Source: Paeniglutamicibacter kerguelensis (GTDB lineage: Bacteria > Actinomycetota > Actinomycetes > Actinomycetales > Micrococcaceae). From it: a stretch of DNA of 64,000 bases. Numbering within the stretch: position 1 is the first letter of the stretch; each line of letters starts with the position of its first letter. The stretch is taken from positions 558,001-622,000 of the forward strand of contig NZ_JAGIOF010000001.1 in assembly GCF_017876535.1 (NCBI RefSeq). Direction: 5' to 3'. The notes beneath the pieces are model-generated. The model was not told the DNA's origin, searched no databases, and saw nothing but the letters and a program-made list of their open reading frames with translations. Made by a program: the position numbers and the translations under genes. Below are positions 37,782-50,003 of the stretch, in pieces.

Positions 37782-40517
37782 TCAGGCCCCGGCCGTGCGG
37801 ACCGGGAGCTCGTTGATGATCCGGTACCCCAGGTTCGGGTCAAACCCGTGGATCTCGCGGGTATCGAGGGCCTCCATGTAGGAGAGGATCTCCTTGGTGA
37901 CGACCTGCCCCGGCACGAGGATCGGGAACCCCGGCGGGTAGGGTGTCACGAACCCGGCGGAAACCACCTCGTCCCCGGCGAGGACACGATCGGCCAACTG
38001 GTGCGGCATCAGGTAGCCGCAACTGCCGGTCTTGTAGGTGGTGAAATACGCCGCGCGGATGTCCCCGTCGATCGTTTGGCCGTCGCTGCGGAACCGATCG
38101 GCAAAGCGGCTGAAGTCCGGCAGCGGCGGCGGAGTGCCGATCAATGCCGCGATCTTCTCCGTGCGCGCTTCCAGGGCCAGCGGGCTCAAGTCGGCCCGTT
38201 CGCGCTCAAAGCGCTCGGCGAGCTTGACCAGCACGTCAATGAGGTAGGCCACCGAACTGCGCGAAGTGCCGATGTTGGTCATGAACAGCACGGTGTTCCG
38301 CGAGGTCTTGTTGACCTGGATCCCGTGCAGGTCCATCAGGTACTTGTGCTTGAAGGTGTCGCCGTCCACCCCGGTCCGCCCAATGTGCAGGGTGAGCCGG
38401 CTGGGGTCCACCACGAACTCGTCGGTGCGCCAGGCCTCGTCCATGGCGGCGATCCCGTCCTGCAGCGGCATGGGCCTGCGGGTGGTGCGGAACTCCTCCG
38501 GGATCAGGTCGTGGGTGTTGAGCACCCGGAAGTACTTCTTCAGCAGCGGATGGCGCGCCACCATCCGGGCCACGGACTGGGCCAGGTAGGCCTGGCGCTG
38601 GACCAGCTCGTAGCCCTCCAGCTCGGCCTGGCGCCGGCCGATGTCCAGCGAGGCCAGGATCTGGTAGTTCGGCGAGGTGGAGGTGTGGGTCATGTAGGCC
38701 TCGCGGAAGGTCACCTCGTTGAGGTGGCTGAAGTCCTGGTCGAAGACGTGGATCATCGACCCCTGGCGCAGCGAGGTCAGCGTCTTGTGCGTCGACTGCG
38801 TGGCGTAGACGCGCAACCTGGCCGTCTCCGGGTCGGGCAGCAGCCTGGTGGAGAGCCACGCCTGGTCGTCGACCGGTTGGCCGGTCTCGGGGTCGAAGAG
38901 TGCCTCCCGCTGGGCCTTGGCGCGTGCAATGTATTCGGGATCCTTGAAGTTGGCCTCGAGGGCCCCGGCCGCGGCCATGGCGGTGCGCCGCCGGTAGATG
39001 GGGTGGAACCCGGCGAACGCGAACCAGGCCTCGTCCCAGAGGAAGACCAGGTCCGGCTTGATGGCCAGGCATTCTTCCATCACGCGCTGGACGTCGTAGA
39101 CGATGCCGTCGAAGGTGCAGTTGGTCAGCGTGACCATCTTGACCTCGTCGAGGCGGCCCGCACGGCGGTAGTCAAGCAGCATGCCCTTGAGGGTCTTCAG
39201 CGGCACGGCGCCGTAGAAGGAGTACTCGTCCAGCGGGTAGGCGTCCACGTAGGCGACCTGCGCGCCGGCGAGCATGAGCGCGTAGTGGTGGGACTTGTGG
39301 CAATTGCGGTCCGCGATGACCACGTCGCCCGGGGCAACGATGGACTGGTGCACGATCTTGTTGGCGGTGGAGGTGCCGTTGGTGACAAAGTACGTCCGCC
39401 GGGCCCCGAAGGCGCGCGCCGCCAGCTCTTGGGCGCCCTTGATGGAGCTGCGCGGGTCCAGCAGCGAGTCGAGCCCGCCGGAGGTGGCGGAGGTTTCCGC
39501 GTGGAGCAGGTTCAGGCCGTAGAATTCGCCCATGTCCTTGATCCACCTGGAATTGACCACGGAGCCGCCGCGGGAGATCGGCAGCGCGTGGAAGACCGCA
39601 GCGGGCTTGCGGCTGTGGTGCTGCACGGCGTCGAAGAACGGGGTCTTGAAGCGTTCGGCCACGCCCCGCAGCAGCGAGAGGTGAAGCTCCATGGACTCCG
39701 CGCGGCGGAAGAGCCTGTTGAATCTCCGGCTCGAGGACCCGGCAAGCTCTTCGATGGACACGTCGGCCACCAGGTACAGGTCCAGCTCCGGGCGCAGCTC
39801 CTTGAGCAGGTCGGCCAGCCTCAGGATCCGTTCCCTGGGCGGGAAAACCGCAACGCCGGGGTCGATCAGGGCATCGAGGTATTTGCGCAGGTCGTCACTC
39901 GGCCGGTGCCGGGTCGGCACGGAAAAGCCGGGGCGCAGGATGCAGGCCTGGATGGTGGGGTTCAAGAGCACCGCGATGAGTGCGTCCTCGAGGCTCGGCA
40001 CCACGTTCACGTCGTAGGCGAAGGCGTCGGTGTTCCGGCGCTGGCGGAGCATCTCGGCGACGACATCCTCGCGCAGCGTCTCGGACATGTCGTCGATGAC
40101 CAGTACCTCGAAGCGCGGCCGCGGGTCCGGCGCCCCCGGCCTGGCCGGTTCCAGGACACGGGCGGGGGAATCCTGATCCGCCGCGTGGTCCTCGGGCTCG
40201 GGGTCGAAGCGCGCAAAACCGCGGGTCACGGCCTCGACCAGGGCCAGGGCCGCGGCGTGGTCGTTTTCCTCGATCCGCGCACGAAGCGCCGCCACGTACG
40301 CGCTGCCCGGAACCGCCCAATAGGTTTCGACGGCCTCCAGGACGCGCAGCTGGCGCCGGACCTCGGAGATCAAGCCGTTTTCGGCCTGGGTGGGGTCGGT
40401 GATGCCGTGCAGCTGCTTGGCCGCATAGCCGAGGTATTCCCAAGCGTCGGTGCGCAGCCTCCAGACGTTGCTGGGGGTTGGGTATTCGTCATCAAGTTTC
40501 ACTGCGGGGGCCTTCAC
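37782..40517 (-). CDS. Orn/Lys/Arg decarboxylase family (PLP, class I) protein
   Basis: A 911-residue PLP enzyme of the biodegradative Orn/Lys/Arg decarboxylase family (fold I). The N-terminal response-regulator-like wing (EVLVIDDMSETLREDVV and following) precedes the PLP domain with NGTSTANKIVHQ, LFLWDEAWFAF and the lysine motif ATQSTHKTLTSLRQG. It likely converts a basic amino acid (lysine, ornithine or arginine) to the amine. It is about 150-200 residues longer than the usual enzymes. It is the third gene of a same-strand set with a NylB-like hydrolase and an ATP-grasp protein, so it may supply an amine to that system. Confidence 0.9.
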   Translation of the reverse strand: MKAPAVKLDDEYPTPSNVWRLRTDAWEYLGYAAKQLHGITDPTQAENGLISEVRRQLRVLEAVETYWAVPGSAYVAALRARIEENDHAAALALVEAVTRGFARFDPEPEDHAADQDSPARVLEPARPGAPDPRPRFEVLVIDDMSETLREDVVAEMLRQRRNTDAFAYDVNVVPSLEDALIAVLLNPTIQACILRPGFSVPTRHRPSDDLRKYLDALIDPGVAVFPPRERILRLADLLKELRPELDLYLVADVSIEELAGSSSRRFNRLFRRAESMELHLSLLRGVAERFKTPFFDAVQHHSRKPAAVFHALPISRGGSVVNSRWIKDMGEFYGLNLLHAETSATSGGLDSLLDPRSSIKGAQELAARAFGARRTYFVTNGTSTANKIVHQSIVAPGDVVIADRNCHKSHHYALMLAGAQVAYVDAYPLDEYSFYGAVPLKTLKGMLLDYRRAGRLDEVKMVTLTNCTFDGIVYDVQRVMEECLAIKPDLVFLWDEAWFAFAGFHPIYRRRTAMAAAGALEANFKDPEYIARAKAQREALFDPETGQPVDDQAWLSTRLLPDPETARLRVYATQSTHKTLTSLRQGSMIHVFDQDFSHLNEVTFREAYMTHTSTSPNYQILASLDIGRRQAELEGYELVQRQAYLAQSVARMVARHPLLKKYFRVLNTHDLIPEEFRTTRRPMPLQDGIAAMDEAWRTDEFVVDPSRLTLHIGRTGVDGDTFKHKYLMDLHGIQVNKTSRNTVLFMTNIGTSRSSVAYLIDVLVKLAERFERERADLSPLALEARTEKIAALIGTPPPLPDFSRFADRFRSDGQTIDGDIRAAYFTTYKTGSCGYLMPHQLADRVLAGDEVVSAGFVTPYPPGFPILVPGQVVTKEILSYMEALDTREIHGFDPNLGYRIINELPVRTAGA

Positions 40518-40659
40518 GGCTGCTCCGATTCTAGGGTGCGTCCGAGCCGGACGTCAGTTGGCCAGTAAGAGATTCGGGATCGCCGGGAACAGACAGCGAC
40601 CACCCACGGGCGGGTCGGGAGGAGACGGCCAACCGCCCGTGGGGTAAAAACGGAACCGC

Positions 40660-41847
40660 TCATTCCAGGGTTGCGGCGATCGAGTCGAAGGCCCGCAGGG
40701 TGGCAAAGAGCTTGGCGGCGTCCTGCGGCAGCGGCCAGCTGGACAGCTTCACCCCCACCATCTTTGCGGGCCGGTTGATGTAGATCATCTGCCCGTGGAT
40801 ACCCAGGCAGAGCACCACGTCGTTGCCCGCGTACGGGAACCACATCTGGTTGCGGTACATCCCGCCGGGCATCCGGTTGTCGCCCGGGCTGTTGGAGAAG
40901 GCCTCGCGGGAATCCGGCGCCCCCTCGAGCGTCTGCCCGACCCATGCCTCGGAGAGCACCCGCTCGCCGTTAAGCGCTCGCCCGCCGTCCAGGAACAGCG
41001 ACCCGAAACGGGCCAGGTCGCGCAGCGTGGCGTTGATCCCGCCGTCGAACATCCCGGTGCCGAACTGGTCGATGCCGATCGTGGCATCGGATTCGGCGCC
41101 GATCCTGCCCCACAACACGCGGGACATCAGCTCGGGCATGGACTCCCCGGAAGCAGCCTCGCAGATCCACCCGAGCATGTCCGCCTCGCAGGAACGGTAC
41201 TCGAAGGCCCCGCCATGGGCGGTCTTTTGCCGCAGCGTCATCAGGTACGGGTAGAGGCCGACGGGCCCGGGGGCGGCCGGCGGTGCCCAGCCGATCGCCT
41301 CCTCCAGCATCCGCACCTCGGCGAACGGATCCAGGTAGTTCTCGGAAAACCCGATGCCCGAGCGCATGTCCAGCAGGTCGCGCACCGTGGCCTCGGCATA
41401 ACCGGTGTCGGCCAGCTCCGGTACGTACGCGGTCAGCGGCTTTGCGGGGTCCAACACCCCGGAATCGGCCAGCGCACCGGCGACCGCGCCGATGAGCGAC
41501 TTGCTCACCGACATCAGCAGGTGCGACGTATTGGCCCCCATCTCGCCGAAGTACGCCTCGTTGAGCACCCTTCCGCGGTGCAGCACCATCCACCCGTCGG
41601 TGTCCGTGGCGCCCATGACCGACCCCACGCTCGAGTCCTCCCCGTCCGGCTCGGTGCCCGGCACCGTGATCGAATCCAGATCGCGGTATGCGGCGGGCAG
41701 CGCCACGGCCAGCCCCTGCCCCCGCGAGATCACCGAGGTGGGCAGGAAATCGGCGATGTGCTGAAAGGACCAACGCAGGTTCTCGGGCATCTGCCAGTTT
41801 TTCATGTCCACCCCCGGTGGGAGGTGATCCAGGTTCGTGCCGTCCAC
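40660..41847 (-). CDS. NylB-like serine hydrolase (beta-lactamase fold)
   Basis: A 395-residue serine hydrolase close to 6-aminohexanoate-dimer hydrolase (NylB): RWSFQHIADFLPTSVISRG near the start, catalytic HLLMSVSKS with Ser113 and Lys116 (SxxK), FEYRSCEADMLGWI with the Tyr region, and GIHGQMIYINRPAKMVGVKLSSWP near the end. Such enzymes cleave small amides or esters by an acyl-enzyme. GTG 41845-41847 is chosen because CGGAG lies just upstream and the length then matches NylB. The open frame to an ATG at 42006 would overlap the ATP-grasp gene. There is no signal peptide, so it is cytoplasmic. Confidence 0.85.
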   Translation of the reverse strand: MDGTNLDHLPPGVDMKNWQMPENLRWSFQHIADFLPTSVISRGQGLAVALPAAYRDLDSITVPGTEPDGEDSSVGSVMGATDTDGWMVLHRGRVLNEAYFGEMGANTSHLLMSVSKSLIGAVAGALADSGVLDPAKPLTAYVPELADTGYAEATVRDLLDMRSGIGFSENYLDPFAEVRMLEEAIGWAPPAAPGPVGLYPYLMTLRQKTAHGGAFEYRSCEADMLGWICEAASGESMPELMSRVLWGRIGAESDATIGIDQFGTGMFDGGINATLRDLARFGSLFLDGGRALNGERVLSEAWVGQTLEGAPDSREAFSNSPGDNRMPGGMYRNQMWFPYAGNDVVLCLGIHGQMIYINRPAKMVGVKLSSWPLPQDAAKLFATLRAFDSIAATLE

Positions 41848-41971
41848 TAATGCTCCGTTCCGTGGCCACAGCGGTGCAGCATTGCGCTGCTGCACCGCCA
41901 TGGCGCTTTCGATGCTGCTACTTCGCAGCCTTTCCATTGCCGCAGTGTTGCGGCGTTGCCTGATCCGGGCC

Positions 41972-44680
41972 CTACCCCGGGGTTTTAACCCCGGCACCCA
42001 CGGCATAGTCGGCCGTCACCGCCCCATCCAAAGGCAGCCCGACAAATCCGGACCTGATGCAGTCGATGAAGTGCTTGGCCCTGATGCTCAGCTGCGAGGT
42101 CCCGTTCCTGTCGATCTGCAGCCGGCCCTTGGTGACCAGGATTCCCAGGTCGGCGCCCTTCCAGCGGTAGTCGCCGGGCCCGTAGACGCGCAGGAAGAAC
42201 GCCTCGGACTCGTTTTGCAGCAGGTGCCAGTCAAGGGCCGCCCCGTTGAAGACCAGGGCGCCCGTGGCATCCAGGTAGTACAGGCCGGTGGCCGGGGTCG
42301 CGGTGAGCAGTTCGACCCTGTCCGAGGTTTCCTTGATGATCATGTGGCTCCACACGTCGGCCCCCGAGAGGGCCTCCCAGCGCTCGTTGATCTCGTTGAC
42401 GTCCAGGTCGAAGTCCACGTCCATGTATTCGAGCAGGTGGAAGAGGAACAGCGGGACGTCGGCGTAGGCTCCGGCGGTCACGTTGGTGATGGCGCTGGCC
42501 CCGGAAATGCGCGGGTTCAGCTCGCCCAGGTAGACCTCGTCGGTGTCGAGGTCCACCAGCACGTCGACCTCGAAGAAGCCGCGGTAGCCCTCCACGACCA
42601 GCCGGTCGCCCATGCGCTGGACAAGCTCCATGGCACGGGCGCGCTGCGAGGCGGTGAGGACATCGGGGTGCATTTCATTGCCGCACCAGCCGCCCGGGTA
42701 CGGGGTGAGGTCGCTGTGACCCGCCAGCTCGGCGAGGAACGGGCCCACCACGGTGCCCGAACGCGTGAGCACTGCCTCGACAGCAACCGCCAGGTTGTTG
42801 ATCCGGCGCATGACCTTGATTTCCTCGCCGACGATCTCCTCGGCGTGCTTGTCCCATTCGGCCTCGTTGGCAATGAAGAACGTGGTCTTGCCCGAATCCC
42901 CGTAGGGGGTCTGGACGACCAGTTCGTTCCCGAGCCCGGCCTTGTCGGCCTCCTGGCGCAGGGTCGTCCAGTCGCTTCCCTTGGTCAGGACGTTGGGCAC
43001 GGACGGCACACCGGCCTCGTTGCCGAGCTGGGTGGTGATGATCTTGGAATCCAGCCGTCGGCGGAGCTCTGCCGACGGCAGGATCAGGTCGTACCCAAGC
43101 TCGTTGCAGATCTGCTCGGTTTCCTCGTTGAAGAAGACCATGGCGACCTTCGGGCGCACGCCCGGACGCAGGTCCCTGGCCATGCGGGCCCGGACCTCGG
43201 CGTTGAGCAGCAACCAGTTGTTGATCTCCTCGCCCGATTCGAATTCACGGTACGGCTTGTGCGCGGGGGTGAAGACCCGCGGGTGGGCCCCGTCCCAGGC
43301 GTTGTAGTAGCTGACGTAGGTGAAGTTCCGCACCCAGCGATCCAGGCCCAGCAGGTTGAACGGGGTTGCGCCGATGAAGAAGACGGGCACGTCGTTGGTG
43401 CGGAAGAAGTGGCGGACCTCGGAGATGTTGCGCAGCTTCTGCGGGTGGGTGACCGCCGGTGCCGTGGAGGCGAAGGCTGCATCGGTGCCGATGGTTGCCT
43501 CGGGTGCCTCGGGACCGGTCGGGGTCGCGCGCGGCATGGGCTCCGAGGCCACACGCTTTTCGGCCGGTGCGGCAACGTCCGCGACGCCGGTCTTGGCCGC
43601 GGTCTTGGCTGCCGGCTTCGTGCCGGGTGTCTGGGCGGAAACTGCCACTGGCTTTTCCGCAATCGCGGCCGGCTTCTGTCCGGTAGCCGGCTTGGTGGCG
43701 GTACCGGGGGTTTTCTCGGCCGGCTTCTCGGCCGCAGCCGGGGTGGACAGGGAAGACGTGGTGGCTGCAGCGGCCGGCTTGGTCGCAGCGTTGGCCGTTT
43801 TCACGGTCGCGGCCGTCGTCGCGGCCGCAGTCGTTGCCGTGCCCGTCTTGGTCGCGGTGTCGGTTGCCTTCGCTGCGGGCTTCGCGGCGGTGGCTTGGAC
43901 GGAGGGAGTGGTTGCTGCGGCCGGCTTTCCCGTCGTTGTCGTGCCCGTTTTGGTCGCGGTGTCGGTTGCCTTCGCTGCGGGCTTTGCGGCGGTGGCTTGG
44001 GCCGTGGGAGTGGTTGTGGCCGTGGTTGTTGCGGCCGGCTTTCCCGTTGCGGTCGTCGCAGCCGTAGGCGTTACGGGGCTCGTCTTGGTCGCGGTGTCGG
44101 TTGCCTTCGCTGCAGGCTTCGTGGCGGTGGCTTGGGCCGAGGGAGCGGTTGTGGCCGCGGATGCCGCGGCCGGCTTCTCTGTTGCGGTCGTCGAAGCCGT
44201 AGGCGTTACGGGGCTCGTCTTGGTCGCGGTGTCGGTTGCCTTCGCTGCAGGCTTCGTGGCGGTGGCTTGGGCCGAGGGAGCGGTTGTGGCCGCGGATGCC
44301 GCGGCCGGCTTCTCTGTTGCGGTCGTCGCAGCCGTAGTCGCTACGGGGCCCGTCTTGGTCGCTGTAGAGGTTGCCTTCGTCACGGGCTTCGTGGCGGTGG
44401 CTTGGGTCGATGGAGCGGCTGTAGGTGCGGCTGCCGCAGCTACAGGCTTTGTTGCCGTAGGCGCAGCCATGGTTGGTTTGGCCGCTACTTCTTTGGCCGC
44501 TACTTCGGAAACATCACGGGAGGTCGCGGACACCGGCTGGGAGGCCGCTGCGGTTTTTGCCGAGGTAGAGCCTCCCGCAACTGTGTTCTTGGAAGCCGTG
44601 GATTTAGCCACAATCTTGGTGATCTGACTCGGCTGGCCGATCTTCTTAGTGGCCTTGTTCGCACGTGCGGTCAATGTCAT
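41972..44680 (-). CDS. ATP-grasp enzyme with long repetitive N-terminal tail
   Basis: A 902-residue protein in two parts. Residues 1 to about 400 are low-complexity, rich in Ala, Thr, Lys and Pro (repeats of KPAAKATDTATKT), like histone H1-type tails of actinobacteria. From about 410 there is an ATP-grasp domain: VPVFFIGATPFNLLGLDRWVRNFTYVSYYNAWDG, VVQTPYGDSGKTTFF (phosphate loop), FEVDVLVDLDTDEVYLGELNPRISGASAITN (metal ligands). ATP-grasp enzymes activate a carboxylate and couple it to an amine or another nucleophile. Often called biotin carboxylase in annotations, but no biotin module is seen. ATG 44678-44680 has AAGGAG very close (about one base away), so a TTG two codons on is possible. 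It heads the set with NylB-like and decarboxylase genes. Confidence 0.82.
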   Translation of the reverse strand: MTLTARANKATKKIGQPSQITKIVAKSTASKNTVAGGSTSAKTAAASQPVSATSRDVSEVAAKEVAAKPTMAAPTATKPVAAAAAPTAAPSTQATATKPVTKATSTATKTGPVATTAATTATEKPAAASAATTAPSAQATATKPAAKATDTATKTSPVTPTASTTATEKPAAASAATTAPSAQATATKPAAKATDTATKTSPVTPTAATTATGKPAATTTATTTPTAQATAAKPAAKATDTATKTGTTTTGKPAAATTPSVQATAAKPAAKATDTATKTGTATTAAATTAATVKTANAATKPAAAATTSSLSTPAAAEKPAEKTPGTATKPATGQKPAAIAEKPVAVSAQTPGTKPAAKTAAKTGVADVAAPAEKRVASEPMPRATPTGPEAPEATIGTDAAFASTAPAVTHPQKLRNISEVRHFFRTNDVPVFFIGATPFNLLGLDRWVRNFTYVSYYNAWDGAHPRVFTPAHKPYREFESGEEINNWLLLNAEVRARMARDLRPGVRPKVAMVFFNEETEQICNELGYDLILPSAELRRRLDSKIITTQLGNEAGVPSVPNVLTKGSDWTTLRQEADKAGLGNELVVQTPYGDSGKTTFFIANEAEWDKHAEEIVGEEIKVMRRINNLAVAVEAVLTRSGTVVGPFLAELAGHSDLTPYPGGWCGNEMHPDVLTASQRARAMELVQRMGDRLVVEGYRGFFEVDVLVDLDTDEVYLGELNPRISGASAITNVTAGAYADVPLFLFHLLEYMDVDFDLDVNEINERWEALSGADVWSHMIIKETSDRVELLTATPATGLYYLDATGALVFNGAALDWHLLQNESEAFFLRVYGPGDYRWKGADLGILVTKGRLQIDRNGTSQLSIRAKHFIDCIRSGFVGLPLDGAVTADYAVGAGVKTPG
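43849..44400 (-). repeat. Tandem repeats encoding 45-residue units in ATP-grasp tail
   Basis: The motif GTCGCGGTGTCGGTTGCC starts at 43851, 43953, 44088 and 44223, with a variant at 44358, giving spacings of 102, 135, 135 and 135 bases. The two middle units differ at only a few bases, pointing to recent duplication. Each 135-base unit encodes 45 residues with KPAAKATDTATKT. Confidence 0.9.
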
Positions 44681-47249: not shown

Positions 47250-47861
47250 TCAGGGTAGGTCGAGGGAAACCACGGCCATGAACCCGCGGCCGCTGATGCG
47301 CGGCGAGTCTTCCTCGCCGCCGATGACAGTGTCGCGCAGTTCAAGCGCGCGTTCGCTGCCGGCCTGGAGGGCAGCGGCCTTGCCCTGGAGCAAGACGCCG
47401 AACTGCGAGCCGAAGAGGTGCTGCTCGCGCTTCTTGGAAAGCTCGACGATTCTGACATTGCCGCGCACGGCGCCGGTTCGGGTGATGAGGTTCAAGGCCA
47501 GTACCTCGCCGGTGGGCAGTGCGGCACTGGTGGCGCTGCCTCCGTGGAACTTCAGCGGCCGGTAGAGTTCGACGGCCTGCTTGGTCCCGTCGATGCTGAG
47601 CTCGAGCAATTCTCCGGCGATCACCGTCAAAGTGCGGTCAAAACCGTCATAGGGCGTGAAGTCGCCGGCTTTTTCGATGGAAGCCACGCTCAGGCGCCAG
47701 TCCCAGTCGTTGGAGGTATAGGGAACCAAGGTGCCGTCGGCATCGAGTCTGCCCGTGGCGATATCGCGGACTTGGCCTTGTCCTTGGCCCCACGGCTTCT
47801 TGGGTGCGGTTGCCAGGGAAATGATCGCGCCGGTTACCAGCGAAGTATTTGTCGGGCTCAT
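47250..47861 (-). CDS. HutD/Ves-family protein, diverged copy
   Basis: A 203-residue cupin-like protein of the HutD/Ves family. The shared ending, GVLLQGKAAALQAGSERALELRDTVIGGEED and AVVSLDLP, matches the copy at 49380-50003, as do the middle WDWRLSVASIEKAGDF and RTLTVIAG. The conserved WxNGGGxTREI motif is degenerate here (PWGQGQGQVRDI). HutD proteins are linked to histidine utilisation, with a regulatory or housekeeping role that is not settled. It lies after two LysE-type genes on the minus strand. Confidence 0.82.
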   Translation of the reverse strand: MSPTNTSLVTGAIISLATAPKKPWGQGQGQVRDIATGRLDADGTLVPYTSNDWDWRLSVASIEKAGDFTPYDGFDRTLTVIAGELLELSIDGTKQAVELYRPLKFHGGSATSAALPTGEVLALNLITRTGAVRGNVRIVELSKKREQHLFGSQFGVLLQGKAAALQAGSERALELRDTVIGGEEDSPRISGRGFMAVVSLDLP

Positions 47862-47939: not shown

Positions 47940-48533
47940 CTACAACCTGACGCCGACCGCGGGGGTCTTGAACCAGGCCACGGCCCGGGCTGCGACGAAG
48001 GTGAGCGCCATGAGATACGCGAATCCAATCACGGTGTACACCAGGCCGAGTAACAACGCAGAACCCAACAGGTTGGAACCGGCCGGGATAAAGGGCGGCA
48101 TCAGGGCCAGAAAAAGCAGCCCGAGCTTGGGGTTCAACGCCGAGGACAACATGCCGGCCCGGAACGACTGCAGGAAAGTGAATTCCCCGGCGTTCGAGGC
48201 GAGCGACCGGGTGGCGATCCGGGCGGTGGCTGAGGTATCACCGGCCAGGAACCGGGCCGTGATGAGGGGACCCAGCCCGAGATAGAGCAGGTACAGGCCG
48301 CCGGCTACGGCGATGCCCTGGTGGATTGCCGGGTAGGTCTTCAACAGTGCCGCGACGCCAAGTCCGGCCAGGGCAGCCCAGCCCATGATCGAAACCATCA
48401 TGCCCATGGCGGAGGCCACTCCGTTGCGCGGGCGGTTCAGGGCGTATCGAAGCAGCAGGAAGGTATCTGGCCCCGGGGAAAGCGCCACCACCAGAGCAAC
48501 CCCTGCAAATCCCAAAAGAGCGGAGAACGGCAT
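47940..48533 (-). CDS. LysE-family exporter with premature stop
   Basis: An amino-acid exporter of the LysE/RhtB family, with LVVALSPGPDTFLLLRYALNRPRNGV, FLQSFRAGMLSSALNPKLGLLFLALMPPFIPAG and AYLMALTFVAARAVAWFKTPAVGVRL. It ends in a TAG at 47940-47942 where its paralogue reads Glu (WLERVSSAALAIMG). The codons after the stop still encode RISSAALAIMGVVVLVGAFPSH to a TAA at 47871-47873. So a nonsense change removed the last membrane helix of a 220-residue protein. It may be inactive or partly functional. ATG 48531-48533. Confidence 0.85.
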   Translation of the reverse strand: MPFSALLGFAGVALVVALSPGPDTFLLLRYALNRPRNGVASAMGMMVSIMGWAALAGLGVAALLKTYPAIHQGIAVAGGLYLLYLGLGPLITARFLAGDTSATARIATRSLASNAGEFTFLQSFRAGMLSSALNPKLGLLFLALMPPFIPAGSNLLGSALLLGLVYTVIGFAYLMALTFVAARAVAWFKTPAVGVRL

Positions 48534-48626
48534 GCCAACCACTATCAGGGTAGGCACTGTCCGGCAGCCATTCGCGAAATGCCACCGGGCGGCCGGCTGA
48601 CTTCCGCAGGGGGAGTCCACCGGTTC

Positions 48627-49292
48627 TTAGTGCGAGGAGAATGCCCCGACAAGCACCACGGCACCCATGATGGCAAGTGCCGCGGAGGAAACACGTTCCA
48701 ACCAAATGCTGACGGCCGGACTCTTGAACCAGGCCATGGCCCGGGCCGCGATGAAGGTCAGCAGCATGAGATAAGCGAAGCCGATCACCGCGAACACGGC
48801 GCCGAGCGTCAACGCGGAGACCAACATGTTGGAACCGGCAGGGATGAATGGCGGCATCAGGGCCAGGAACAACAGGCCGAGCTTCGGGTTCAACGCCGAG
48901 GAGAGCGCCCCCGCGCGGACCGACTGCATGAACGTGAATTCCGTGGTGCCCGCGGCGGTGATGGATCTGGTGGTGGTTCGGGCCGTCGCAGCGGTGGCTC
49001 CGGCCAAGAACCGCGCCTTGACGAAGGAACCGAGCCCCAGATAGAGCAGGTACAGGCCGCCGACTACGGCGATTCCCTGGTGGATGGCCGGGTAGGTCTG
49101 CAGCAACGCGGCGACGCCAAGACCGGCCAGAGCTGCCCAGGCCATGATCGAAACCATCATGCCCAGTGCGGCTGCAACGCCGTTGCGGGGACGGTTCAGG
49201 GCGTAGCGAAGCAACAGAAACGTGTCGGGACCGGGTGCAAGAACAATCACCAGCGAGAGCCCGGCGAAACCAAGAAGTGCGGAAAGCGGCAT
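48627..49292 (-). CDS. LysE/RhtB-family amino acid exporter
   Basis: A 221-residue membrane protein with about six helices: SLVIVLAPGPDTFLLLRYALNRPRNGV at the start, SALNPKLGLLFLALMPPFIPAG in the middle and WLERVSSAALAIMGAVVLVGAF at the end. It should export an amino acid; histidine, lysine or a toxic analogue are guesses. It is complete, unlike its tandem copy downstream, which it resembles over its whole length. ATG 49290-49292 is used; another ATG is nine bases upstream. It lies about 90 bases after the hutD gene. Confidence 0.92.
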   Translation of the reverse strand: MPLSALLGFAGLSLVIVLAPGPDTFLLLRYALNRPRNGVAAALGMMVSIMAWAALAGLGVAALLQTYPAIHQGIAVVGGLYLLYLGLGSFVKARFLAGATAATARTTTRSITAAGTTEFTFMQSVRAGALSSALNPKLGLLFLALMPPFIPAGSNMLVSALTLGAVFAVIGFAYLMLLTFIAARAMAWFKSPAVSIWLERVSSAALAIMGAVVLVGAFSSH

Positions 49293-49379
49293 GCTACCCA
49301 TTATTGGCGTCCGTGGCACTTCGGGGAAAAAGGCGGGTCCCGGTCTGGCGACGGGACCCACGTGTAAGACCCGGTGCCT

Positions 49380-50003
49380 CTACGGCCTGCCCTCTTGCAA
49401 CGAAACCACGGCCAGGAGGCCGCTGCCGGTGATGGCGGGAGCATCTTCACCGCCGCCGACGACGGTGTCGTAGCGCTCCAGAGGCCGATGCTTGGACTCG
49501 CCGGCCAACAACCGTGCCCGGCCCTGAAGCAGCACGCCGAGCTGGCCCGCGAAAAGCTTCCGCGGGTGCTCCGGGGACAGCTCCTCGATGTCTATCTGTC
49601 CGTTTACTGTTCCGCTGCGGGTAATCAGGTTGAAGTCCCTGATCGGCCCGGCAGGCAGCGTCGAACTGGTGGCGGCACCGCCGTCGAACTGCAGCGGCTC
49701 GTACCTGCCCAGCCGCTGCTCGACCCCGTCGATGTTGATCGCCAGACCTTCGCCTTCAATGACAGTCAGGATCCGGGTCATCCCGGCAAATGCCGAGAAC
49801 GGCCCCTCGCTTTCCACGTCGGCAATGCTCAGCCGCCAGTCCCAACCGTCGCCGGGAACGGCTTCCAAGGTTCCCAAGACGCCCAACTTCCCCGAGACGA
49901 TCTGCCGGGTCACCCCGCCGCCGTTGCGCCAGGGTGCGGGACTGATCCCGGAGTAGGCGATGACGGTGCCGGGGGACAGAGACAGGGGTTGTGGGGCATC
50001 CAT
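49380..50003 (-). CDS. HutD-family protein
   Basis: A 207-residue HutD/Ves protein with the canonical PWRNGGGVTRQI motif, WDWRLSIADVESEGPFSAFAGMTRILTVIEG and TVVGGGEDAPAITG. HutD is found next to hut genes in many bacteria, with a proposed role in controlling pathway flux. It lies 32 bases after the hutH stop on the same strand, so it is probably co-transcribed. Its canonical motif contrasts with the diverged copy at 47250-47861. Confidence 0.9.
   Translation of the reverse strand: MDAPQPLSLSPGTVIAYSGISPAPWRNGGGVTRQIVSGKLGVLGTLEAVPGDGWDWRLSIADVESEGPFSAFAGMTRILTVIEGEGLAINIDGVEQRLGRYEPLQFDGGAATSSTLPAGPIRDFNLITRSGTVNGQIDIEELSPEHPRKLFAGQLGVLLQGRARLLAGESKHRPLERYDTVVGGGEDAPAITGSGLLAVVSLQEGRP

Follow-up and report, generated by a model that had tools for sequence, protein, structure and literature searches.

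A putative amide ligase–hydrolase pair with a frequent decarboxylase partner at a locus of Paeniglutamicibacter kerguelensis

What might an ATP-grasp protein, a relative of the nylon-oligomer hydrolase NylB and an amino acid decarboxylase do side by side? This question is raised by three adjoining open reading frames on the minus strand of a 64,000-nucleotide stretch of the P. kerguelensis genome (contig NZ_JAGIOF010000001.1, positions 558,001 to 622,000; referred to below as the window), which follow one another in that order with intergenic gaps of 124 and 142 bp. The initial annotation had read them as one operon whose products make and break an amide or peptide of a diamine or omega-amino acid. 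Positions, shared strand and gap lengths were found as it gave them, and its three families were borne out by NF005096 and an ATP-grasp fold, by PF00144 and solved NylB structures, and by PF01276. With a probability of about 0.5 we read the locus as encoding an amide-protection module for the breakdown of an amine or omega-amino acid; that its core is an ATP-dependent amide ligase paired with an amide hydrolase, both activities being putative, is rather probable.

Relatives were gathered by genome searches, related-locus searches and DNA-similarity searches. Among 149 genomes of the same bacterial family 23 passed the cut-off for the ATP-grasp gene, and a congener with interrupted copies (G022) raises this number to 24. 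The NylB-like gene, at 50% identity or above, is present in exactly the same 24 genomes (G137 has only a 25% match), and all NylB-like copies of at least this identity lie in ATP-grasp-bearing genomes of the sample. The two genes stand beside each other in all 23 family loci read, i.e. the 22 others over the cut-off and G022. A decarboxylase match (E 1e-80 or better) was found in 27 of the 149 genomes; 22 of these belong to the 24, and one of the other five matches is a fragment (Fisher test for co-occurrence with the ligase 1.8e-19, not corrected for kinship). A further congener (G094) is without all three genes. A sample of 396 genomes of the phylum yielded the ATP-grasp gene in 15, the decarboxylase in nine and both in five.

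Furthermore, 80 of 138 confirmed named loci were kept. Of these, 75 have the NylB-like gene; in the stretches fetched, 14 have the decarboxylase, which is on the strand of the ligase in ten and convergent in four. Gene order was compared in 103 loci, comprising the 80 named loci, 14 plasmid loci and nine of the 15 additional places in the phylum sample that match the ligase. Many come from relatives of Brevibacterium, Mycobacterium or Rhizobium, and the loci are thus not independent. A hydrolase is the next gene downstream of the ligase, on the same strand and within about 500 bp (measured between aligned ends), in 94 of the 103 loci: a NylB-like protein in 76 and a protein of the C45 family in 18. 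Seventy-two of the 80 named loci have this arrangement. Two of the remaining nine loci end at that point and seven differ; in L120 both hydrolases lie on the opposite strand, in L125 the hydrolase is 6 kb away on the opposite strand and in L164 the C45 gene is convergent. Gene order varies between lineages while the genes stay together. Linkage of the three families thus reaches well past P. kerguelensis, across the bacterial family, the phylum and plasmid loci. The outcome that would have spoken against the initial annotation, with the genes together in this species alone, did not occur, and the regular presence of an amide hydrolase next to the ligase fits the idea of an amide that is made and broken. 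The stable core is the ligase–hydrolase pair, which the decarboxylase accompanies often, though not always. In the congener G022 (L054) two neighbouring sets of ATP-grasp and NylB-like genes lie beside an unbroken decarboxylase match; both ATP-grasp copies and one of the two NylB-like copies are interrupted.

On plasmids of Alpha- and Betaproteobacteria the place behind the ligase is taken by a C45 (AAT) Ntn-hydrolase, with a match in 14 of 14 loci read (in L148 an insertion element has cut it short). In ten of the 14 loci the decarboxylase lies directly upstream of this ligase–C45 pair, and it is in pieces in L145 and L148. C45 enzymes have amide hydrolysis as their chemistry, but belong to an unrelated family that is absent from the locus of the window; AzsT, for example, is described as removing a succinyl amide (PMC10445470). 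That two unrelated amide hydrolases occupy one and the same position suggests that what the ligase needs at its side is the cleavage of amides.

The ATP-grasp protein scores 718.4 bits against NF005096, named "biotin carboxylase", and thereby exceeds the curated cut-off of 684. Aligned to pyruvate carboxylase, it keeps N-P-R-I, but the following Q-V-E-H, which we take to be the catalytic stretch of biotin carboxylase, is missing and S-G-A-S stands in its place. The residues S325, G326 and A327 are invariant across 43 ATP-grasp sequences (the window and 42 of the 80 named loci, with L082, which has a stop in this stretch, and L085, L088, L120 and L129 left aside). By motif, the protein is not a carboxylase. 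Its predicted structure (predicted local distance difference test, pLDDT, 85.9) has an ATP-grasp fold about equally similar to PurK, biotin carboxylase, PurD, PurT, PylC and a peptide ligase. No relative of the ligase turned up when viral contigs were scanned.

The N-terminal tail of the ATP-grasp protein has counterparts of like composition in six loci of the genus (211–440 residues). Long Ala/Lys-rich tails were also seen in the Brevibacterium loci L085 and L088, and many other loci have shorter ones. A lysine-rich tail serving as substrate of the ligase was considered and dropped because length and composition of the tail vary widely.

The NylB-like protein matches PF00144 (E 1.8e-33) and the NylB structures of the PDB (E 1.5e-70). 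Equivalents of the catalytic Ser112, Lys115 and Tyr215 of NylB and of its Tyr170 and Trp186 are kept in 103 of 103 hydrolase sequences, a set in which some genomes count twice (named and unnamed records) and from which matches of 45% identity or less, short matches and one match of L117 with a stop in the aligned stretch were dropped. Position 181 always keeps an acid (Glu in 99, Asp in four), and position 266 is Asp in 102 sequences and Asn in one. The hydrolase of the window shares the sequence family, the Ser-x-x-Lys motif and the conserved Tyr and Trp residues with NylB, the 6-aminohexanoate-dimer hydrolase of the Arthrobacter KI72 plasmid, but differs from it in having Glu for Asp181 and Asp for Asn266 and in being partnered with a ligase. 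An acid at position 181 would suit a substrate carrying an ammonium group. Asp181 and Asn266 of NylB are reported to be important for hydrolysis of the 6-aminohexanoate dimer (PMC7019077). No NylB plasmid was seen among the 40 matches listed of 175 matching records.

Two further NylB-like paralogues with 75% and 53% identity are encoded elsewhere in the genome of the window (G000:C1:1863002 and G000:C1:4009779; L205 and L206). Around nine extra NylB-like copies no clear pathway emerged; their neighbours encode an amino-acid permease together with a DJ-1/PfpI protein, an amidohydrolase, FAD oxidoreductases and others.

For the decarboxylase, PF01276 gave 239.6 at a cut-off of 27 (E 6.9e-71) and PF03711 gave 24.5 at a cut-off of 24.2. 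K578 within S-T-H-K, presumably the lysine that binds pyridoxal phosphate (PLP), aligns to the S-x-H-K of PDB 9n0o and 6q6i. The closest solved relative, matching over the full length (E about 1.7e-229), is PDB 9n0n/9n0o. A review identifies these entries as Rv2531c, a probable amino acid decarboxylase whose activity is not clarified (PMC12910592). An assignment of the substrate by similarity was tried and given up, since sequence comparison does not tell arginine from lysine or ornithine.

Genes for amine breakdown recur beside the pair in several lineages. In 85 clustered loci, with clusters named by scanning one or a few of the members of each, aldehyde dehydrogenases form a cluster of 22 members in 11 groups, amino-acid permeases one of 12 members in eight groups, and aminotransferases, including gamma-aminobutyrate (GABA) transaminase, one of ten members in seven groups. 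Smaller clusters comprise a carbon-nitrogen hydrolase, agmatine deiminase, copper amine oxidase, agmatinase and an NAD-glutamate dehydrogenase. A GABA transaminase gene lies within eight of 33 chromosomal loci compared to 0.24 expected (36 loci, less three on plasmids, with contigs matched by coordinates); this excess is overstated, because the loci were chosen after the clusters had been seen and kinship is uncorrected. The Propionibacteriaceae locus L090 has the order amine oxidase, aldehyde dehydrogenase, permease, agmatinase-type protein, ATP-grasp, NylB-like (mostly by clustering), and the Microlunatus locus L117 the order NylB-like, copper amine oxidase, ATP-grasp. One Shinella plasmid and one labelled Roseateles carry genes for a permease, agmatinase, 5-guanidino-2-oxopentanoate (ketoarginine) decarboxylase and aldehyde dehydrogenase, followed by ATP-grasp, C45, D-amino acid dehydrogenase and racemase. 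The initial annotation had suggested lysine, cadaverine or 6-aminohexanoate among possible substrates. These remain without support. Gene neighbourhoods elsewhere suggest arginine, agmatine, putrescine and GABA or, in some Micrococcaceae, show a position close to hut genes.

Taken together, the pair and its amine-breakdown neighbours suggest that amines are dealt with in a manner not yet described. The γ-glutamyl-putrescine (Puu) route of Escherichia coli consists of a permease, ATP-dependent acylation of the amine, oxidation, an aldehyde dehydrogenase, amide hydrolysis and a GABA transaminase. A comparable logic would start with the decarboxylase making the amine, arginine to agmatine being our first guess. 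The ATP-grasp enzyme would activate a carboxylate with ATP, probably that of an amino acid such as glutamate, and couple it to the amine. The protected amine may then be oxidised, in relatives possibly by a copper amine oxidase or a transaminase together with the aldehyde dehydrogenase encoded beside the pair. Finally the NylB-like hydrolase, or the C45 protein in other lineages, would split the amide and free an omega-amino acid (GABA), which could pass to GABA transaminase. Some relatives have genes for corresponding roles next to the pair. The locus differs from Puu in its ligase, an ATP-grasp protein whereas PuuA is glutamine-synthetase-like, and in its amidase, which is NylB-like (C45 elsewhere) and not of the PuuD type, both comparisons being confined to the locus. 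Genes for the oxidation and aldehyde dehydrogenase roles lie beside the pair in other lineages but were not seen in the loci of the genus. A version of the γ-glutamyl-putrescine route with GlnA2/GlnA3 is reported from Streptomyces. The matches listed from the open-licence literature contained no ATP-grasp ligase in polyamine or agmatine breakdown. A Puu-like amine route in all its details stays tentative, somewhat short of an even chance; much the same holds for an undescribed acyl-protected route of amine catabolism common to Actinomycetota and Proteobacteria, with the ATP-grasp protein in the role of PuuA and the NylB-like or C45 protein in that of PuuD.

Several observations weigh against an amide-protection module for amine breakdown. 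The decarboxylase is present in only five of the 15 ligase genomes of the phylum sample, and in 66 of the 80 named loci the stretch fetched showed no copy of it. Three mycobacterial loci (L079, L081, L084) have neither hydrolase within the fetched 10 kb on each side. The fold of the ATP-grasp protein does not choose the substrate of the ligase, since its likeness is tied among the enzymes named above. None of the aldehyde dehydrogenase, permease, aminotransferase, amine oxidase and agmatinase clusters was found in six Paeniglutamicibacter-type loci (two flanking proteins of the window were scanned), and 20 Brevibacterium loci of the 80 named have the pair and none of these clusters. In the genome of the window the copper amine oxidase and the sole GABA transaminase over the cut-off lie more than 2 Mb from the locus. 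Finally, hut genes are found near the decarboxylase in some Micrococcaceae.

The next gene in L079, L081 and L084 encodes a PucR-type regulator, as named by a scan of the L084 protein; upstream, L084 also has a gene for a Zeta-toxin-like kinase.

Of the other explanations the one that survives best, although unlikely, is that the two enzymes form and recover an amide compound for storage, export or signalling and do not serve catabolic protection. It would account for an ABC transporter, an amidase and a second NylB-like hydrolase downstream of the genes in Rhizobium, a Roseobacter transporter labelled oligopeptide/dipeptide, the pair of Brevibacterium without recurrent amine genes, and the extra NylB-like copies elsewhere in some ligase-bearing genomes. 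The linkage of the pair to amine oxidase, aldehyde dehydrogenase, GABA transaminase, agmatinase and agmatine deiminase in several lineages, however, fits amine breakdown better.

Histamine, or another compound derived from histidine, is a live but still less probable rival as the amine, because the decarboxylase is close to histidine-degradation genes in several Micrococcaceae: it would act on histidine, the ligase would make for example an aminoacyl-histamine and the hydrolase would release the amine again. Among ten stretches in which the decarboxylase lies apart from the ligase, HutH-like or urocanase genes are present in L151, L152 and L154, and HutG adjoins the decarboxylase in L153. Seven genomes of the window's genus have the decarboxylase, and in each of them hutH lies 9.5–18 kb from it; the distances in G095, G127 and G038 are 0.4, 1.2 and 5.3 kb. 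In flies, relatives of C45 are known to cleave the beta-alanyl amines of histamine and dopamine. Nevertheless, group III decarboxylases are known for arginine, lysine and ornithine and not for histidine; the neighbours of the ligase outside the Micrococcaceae are agmatine, putrescine and GABA genes, and in other pair-bearing Micrococcaceae (e.g. G027, G055, G019) the decarboxylase is far from hutH.

That the three genes are neighbours with no common function is very improbable. The lack of a decarboxylase near most ligase loci and the hairpin and promoter-like site in the spacer before the decarboxylase gene would agree with it, but the ligase and hydrolase occur in the same 24 genomes, 22 of them with the decarboxylase, and the genes remain together in several gene orders. 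Most improbable of all is a true biotin carboxylase, as the name and score of NF005096 and the fold suggest, given the invariant S-G-A-S residues in place of Q-V-E-H and an amide hydrolase as the usual partner.

Textbooks present NylB as the example of a "new" enzyme that degrades nylon, and its evolutionary origin has long been debated. If an amide-protection module is indeed encoded here, relatives of NylB would have a natural role, the trade of the family being to cut omega-aminoacyl or γ-glutamyl-type amides of biological amines. Furthermore, a function would be given to a widespread protein mislabelled biotin carboxylase and to the unassigned Rv2531c-type decarboxylase family, and two unrelated hydrolases would be shown to replace each other beside one ligase.

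The layout of the locus is given in Table 1. The claim of a single operon stood in part. In its favour, a consensus scan of the minus strand listed no terminator with a U tail in the two gaps; against it, both gaps contain strong hairpins (z −4.6 with a 17-bp stem between the ATP-grasp and NylB-like genes, z −2.45 between the NylB-like and decarboxylase genes), and a promoter-like site lies directly upstream of the decarboxylase gene. In six Paeniglutamicibacter-type loci (L055–L058, L061, L062) the gap between hydrolase and decarboxylase is 13–60 bp, measured to the first aligned residue. A single transcript across the three genes is only partly secured. The open frame of the ATP-grasp gene reaches upstream to 44884 and that of the NylB-like gene starts at 42006.

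Table 1 Features of the three-gene locus in the window
Feature	Position	Strand	Remarks
Putative ATP-grasp ligase, labelled biotin carboxylase (PRK06524/NF005096)	41972..44680	-	ATG at 44680, stop ends at 41972; 902 aa
ATP-grasp catalytic core; E-x-N-P-R-I-S-G-A-S replaces N-P-R-I-Q-V-E-H	41972..43477	-	–
ATP-grasp N-terminal low-complexity Ala/Thr/Lys/Pro tail	43478..44680	-	401 aa; 102- and 135-bp tandem repeats
Spacer	41848..41971	-	124 bp; strong hairpin, no U tail
NylB-like putative serine amide hydrolase (beta-lactamase family PF00144)	40660..41847	-	GTG at 41847, end at 40660; 395 aa
Spacer	40518..40659	-	142 bp; hairpin and promoter-like site (40557-40528)
Rv2531c-type group III (Orn/Lys/Arg family) PLP decarboxylase, predicted	37782..40517	-	GTG at 40517, end at 37782; 911 aa; K578 in S-T-H-K

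On two Rhizobium leguminosarum plasmids (L138, L139) the decarboxylase, ATP-grasp and C45 genes adjoin nifHDKEN, and an ABC transporter, an amidase, a MurR/RpiR regulator and a NylB-like hydrolase are encoded downstream. A sigma-54 (nif) promoter for these genes was looked for and rejected: the one site of each locus has a mismatch, sits amid the nif genes at the far end of the stretch and is expected by chance.

Outside the three genes, the window contains two tandem pairs of similar genes between 47250 and 50003. By their translations, 47250-47861 and 49380-50003 presumably encode HutD-like proteins, and 47940-48620 and 48627-49361 presumably LysE-like exporters.

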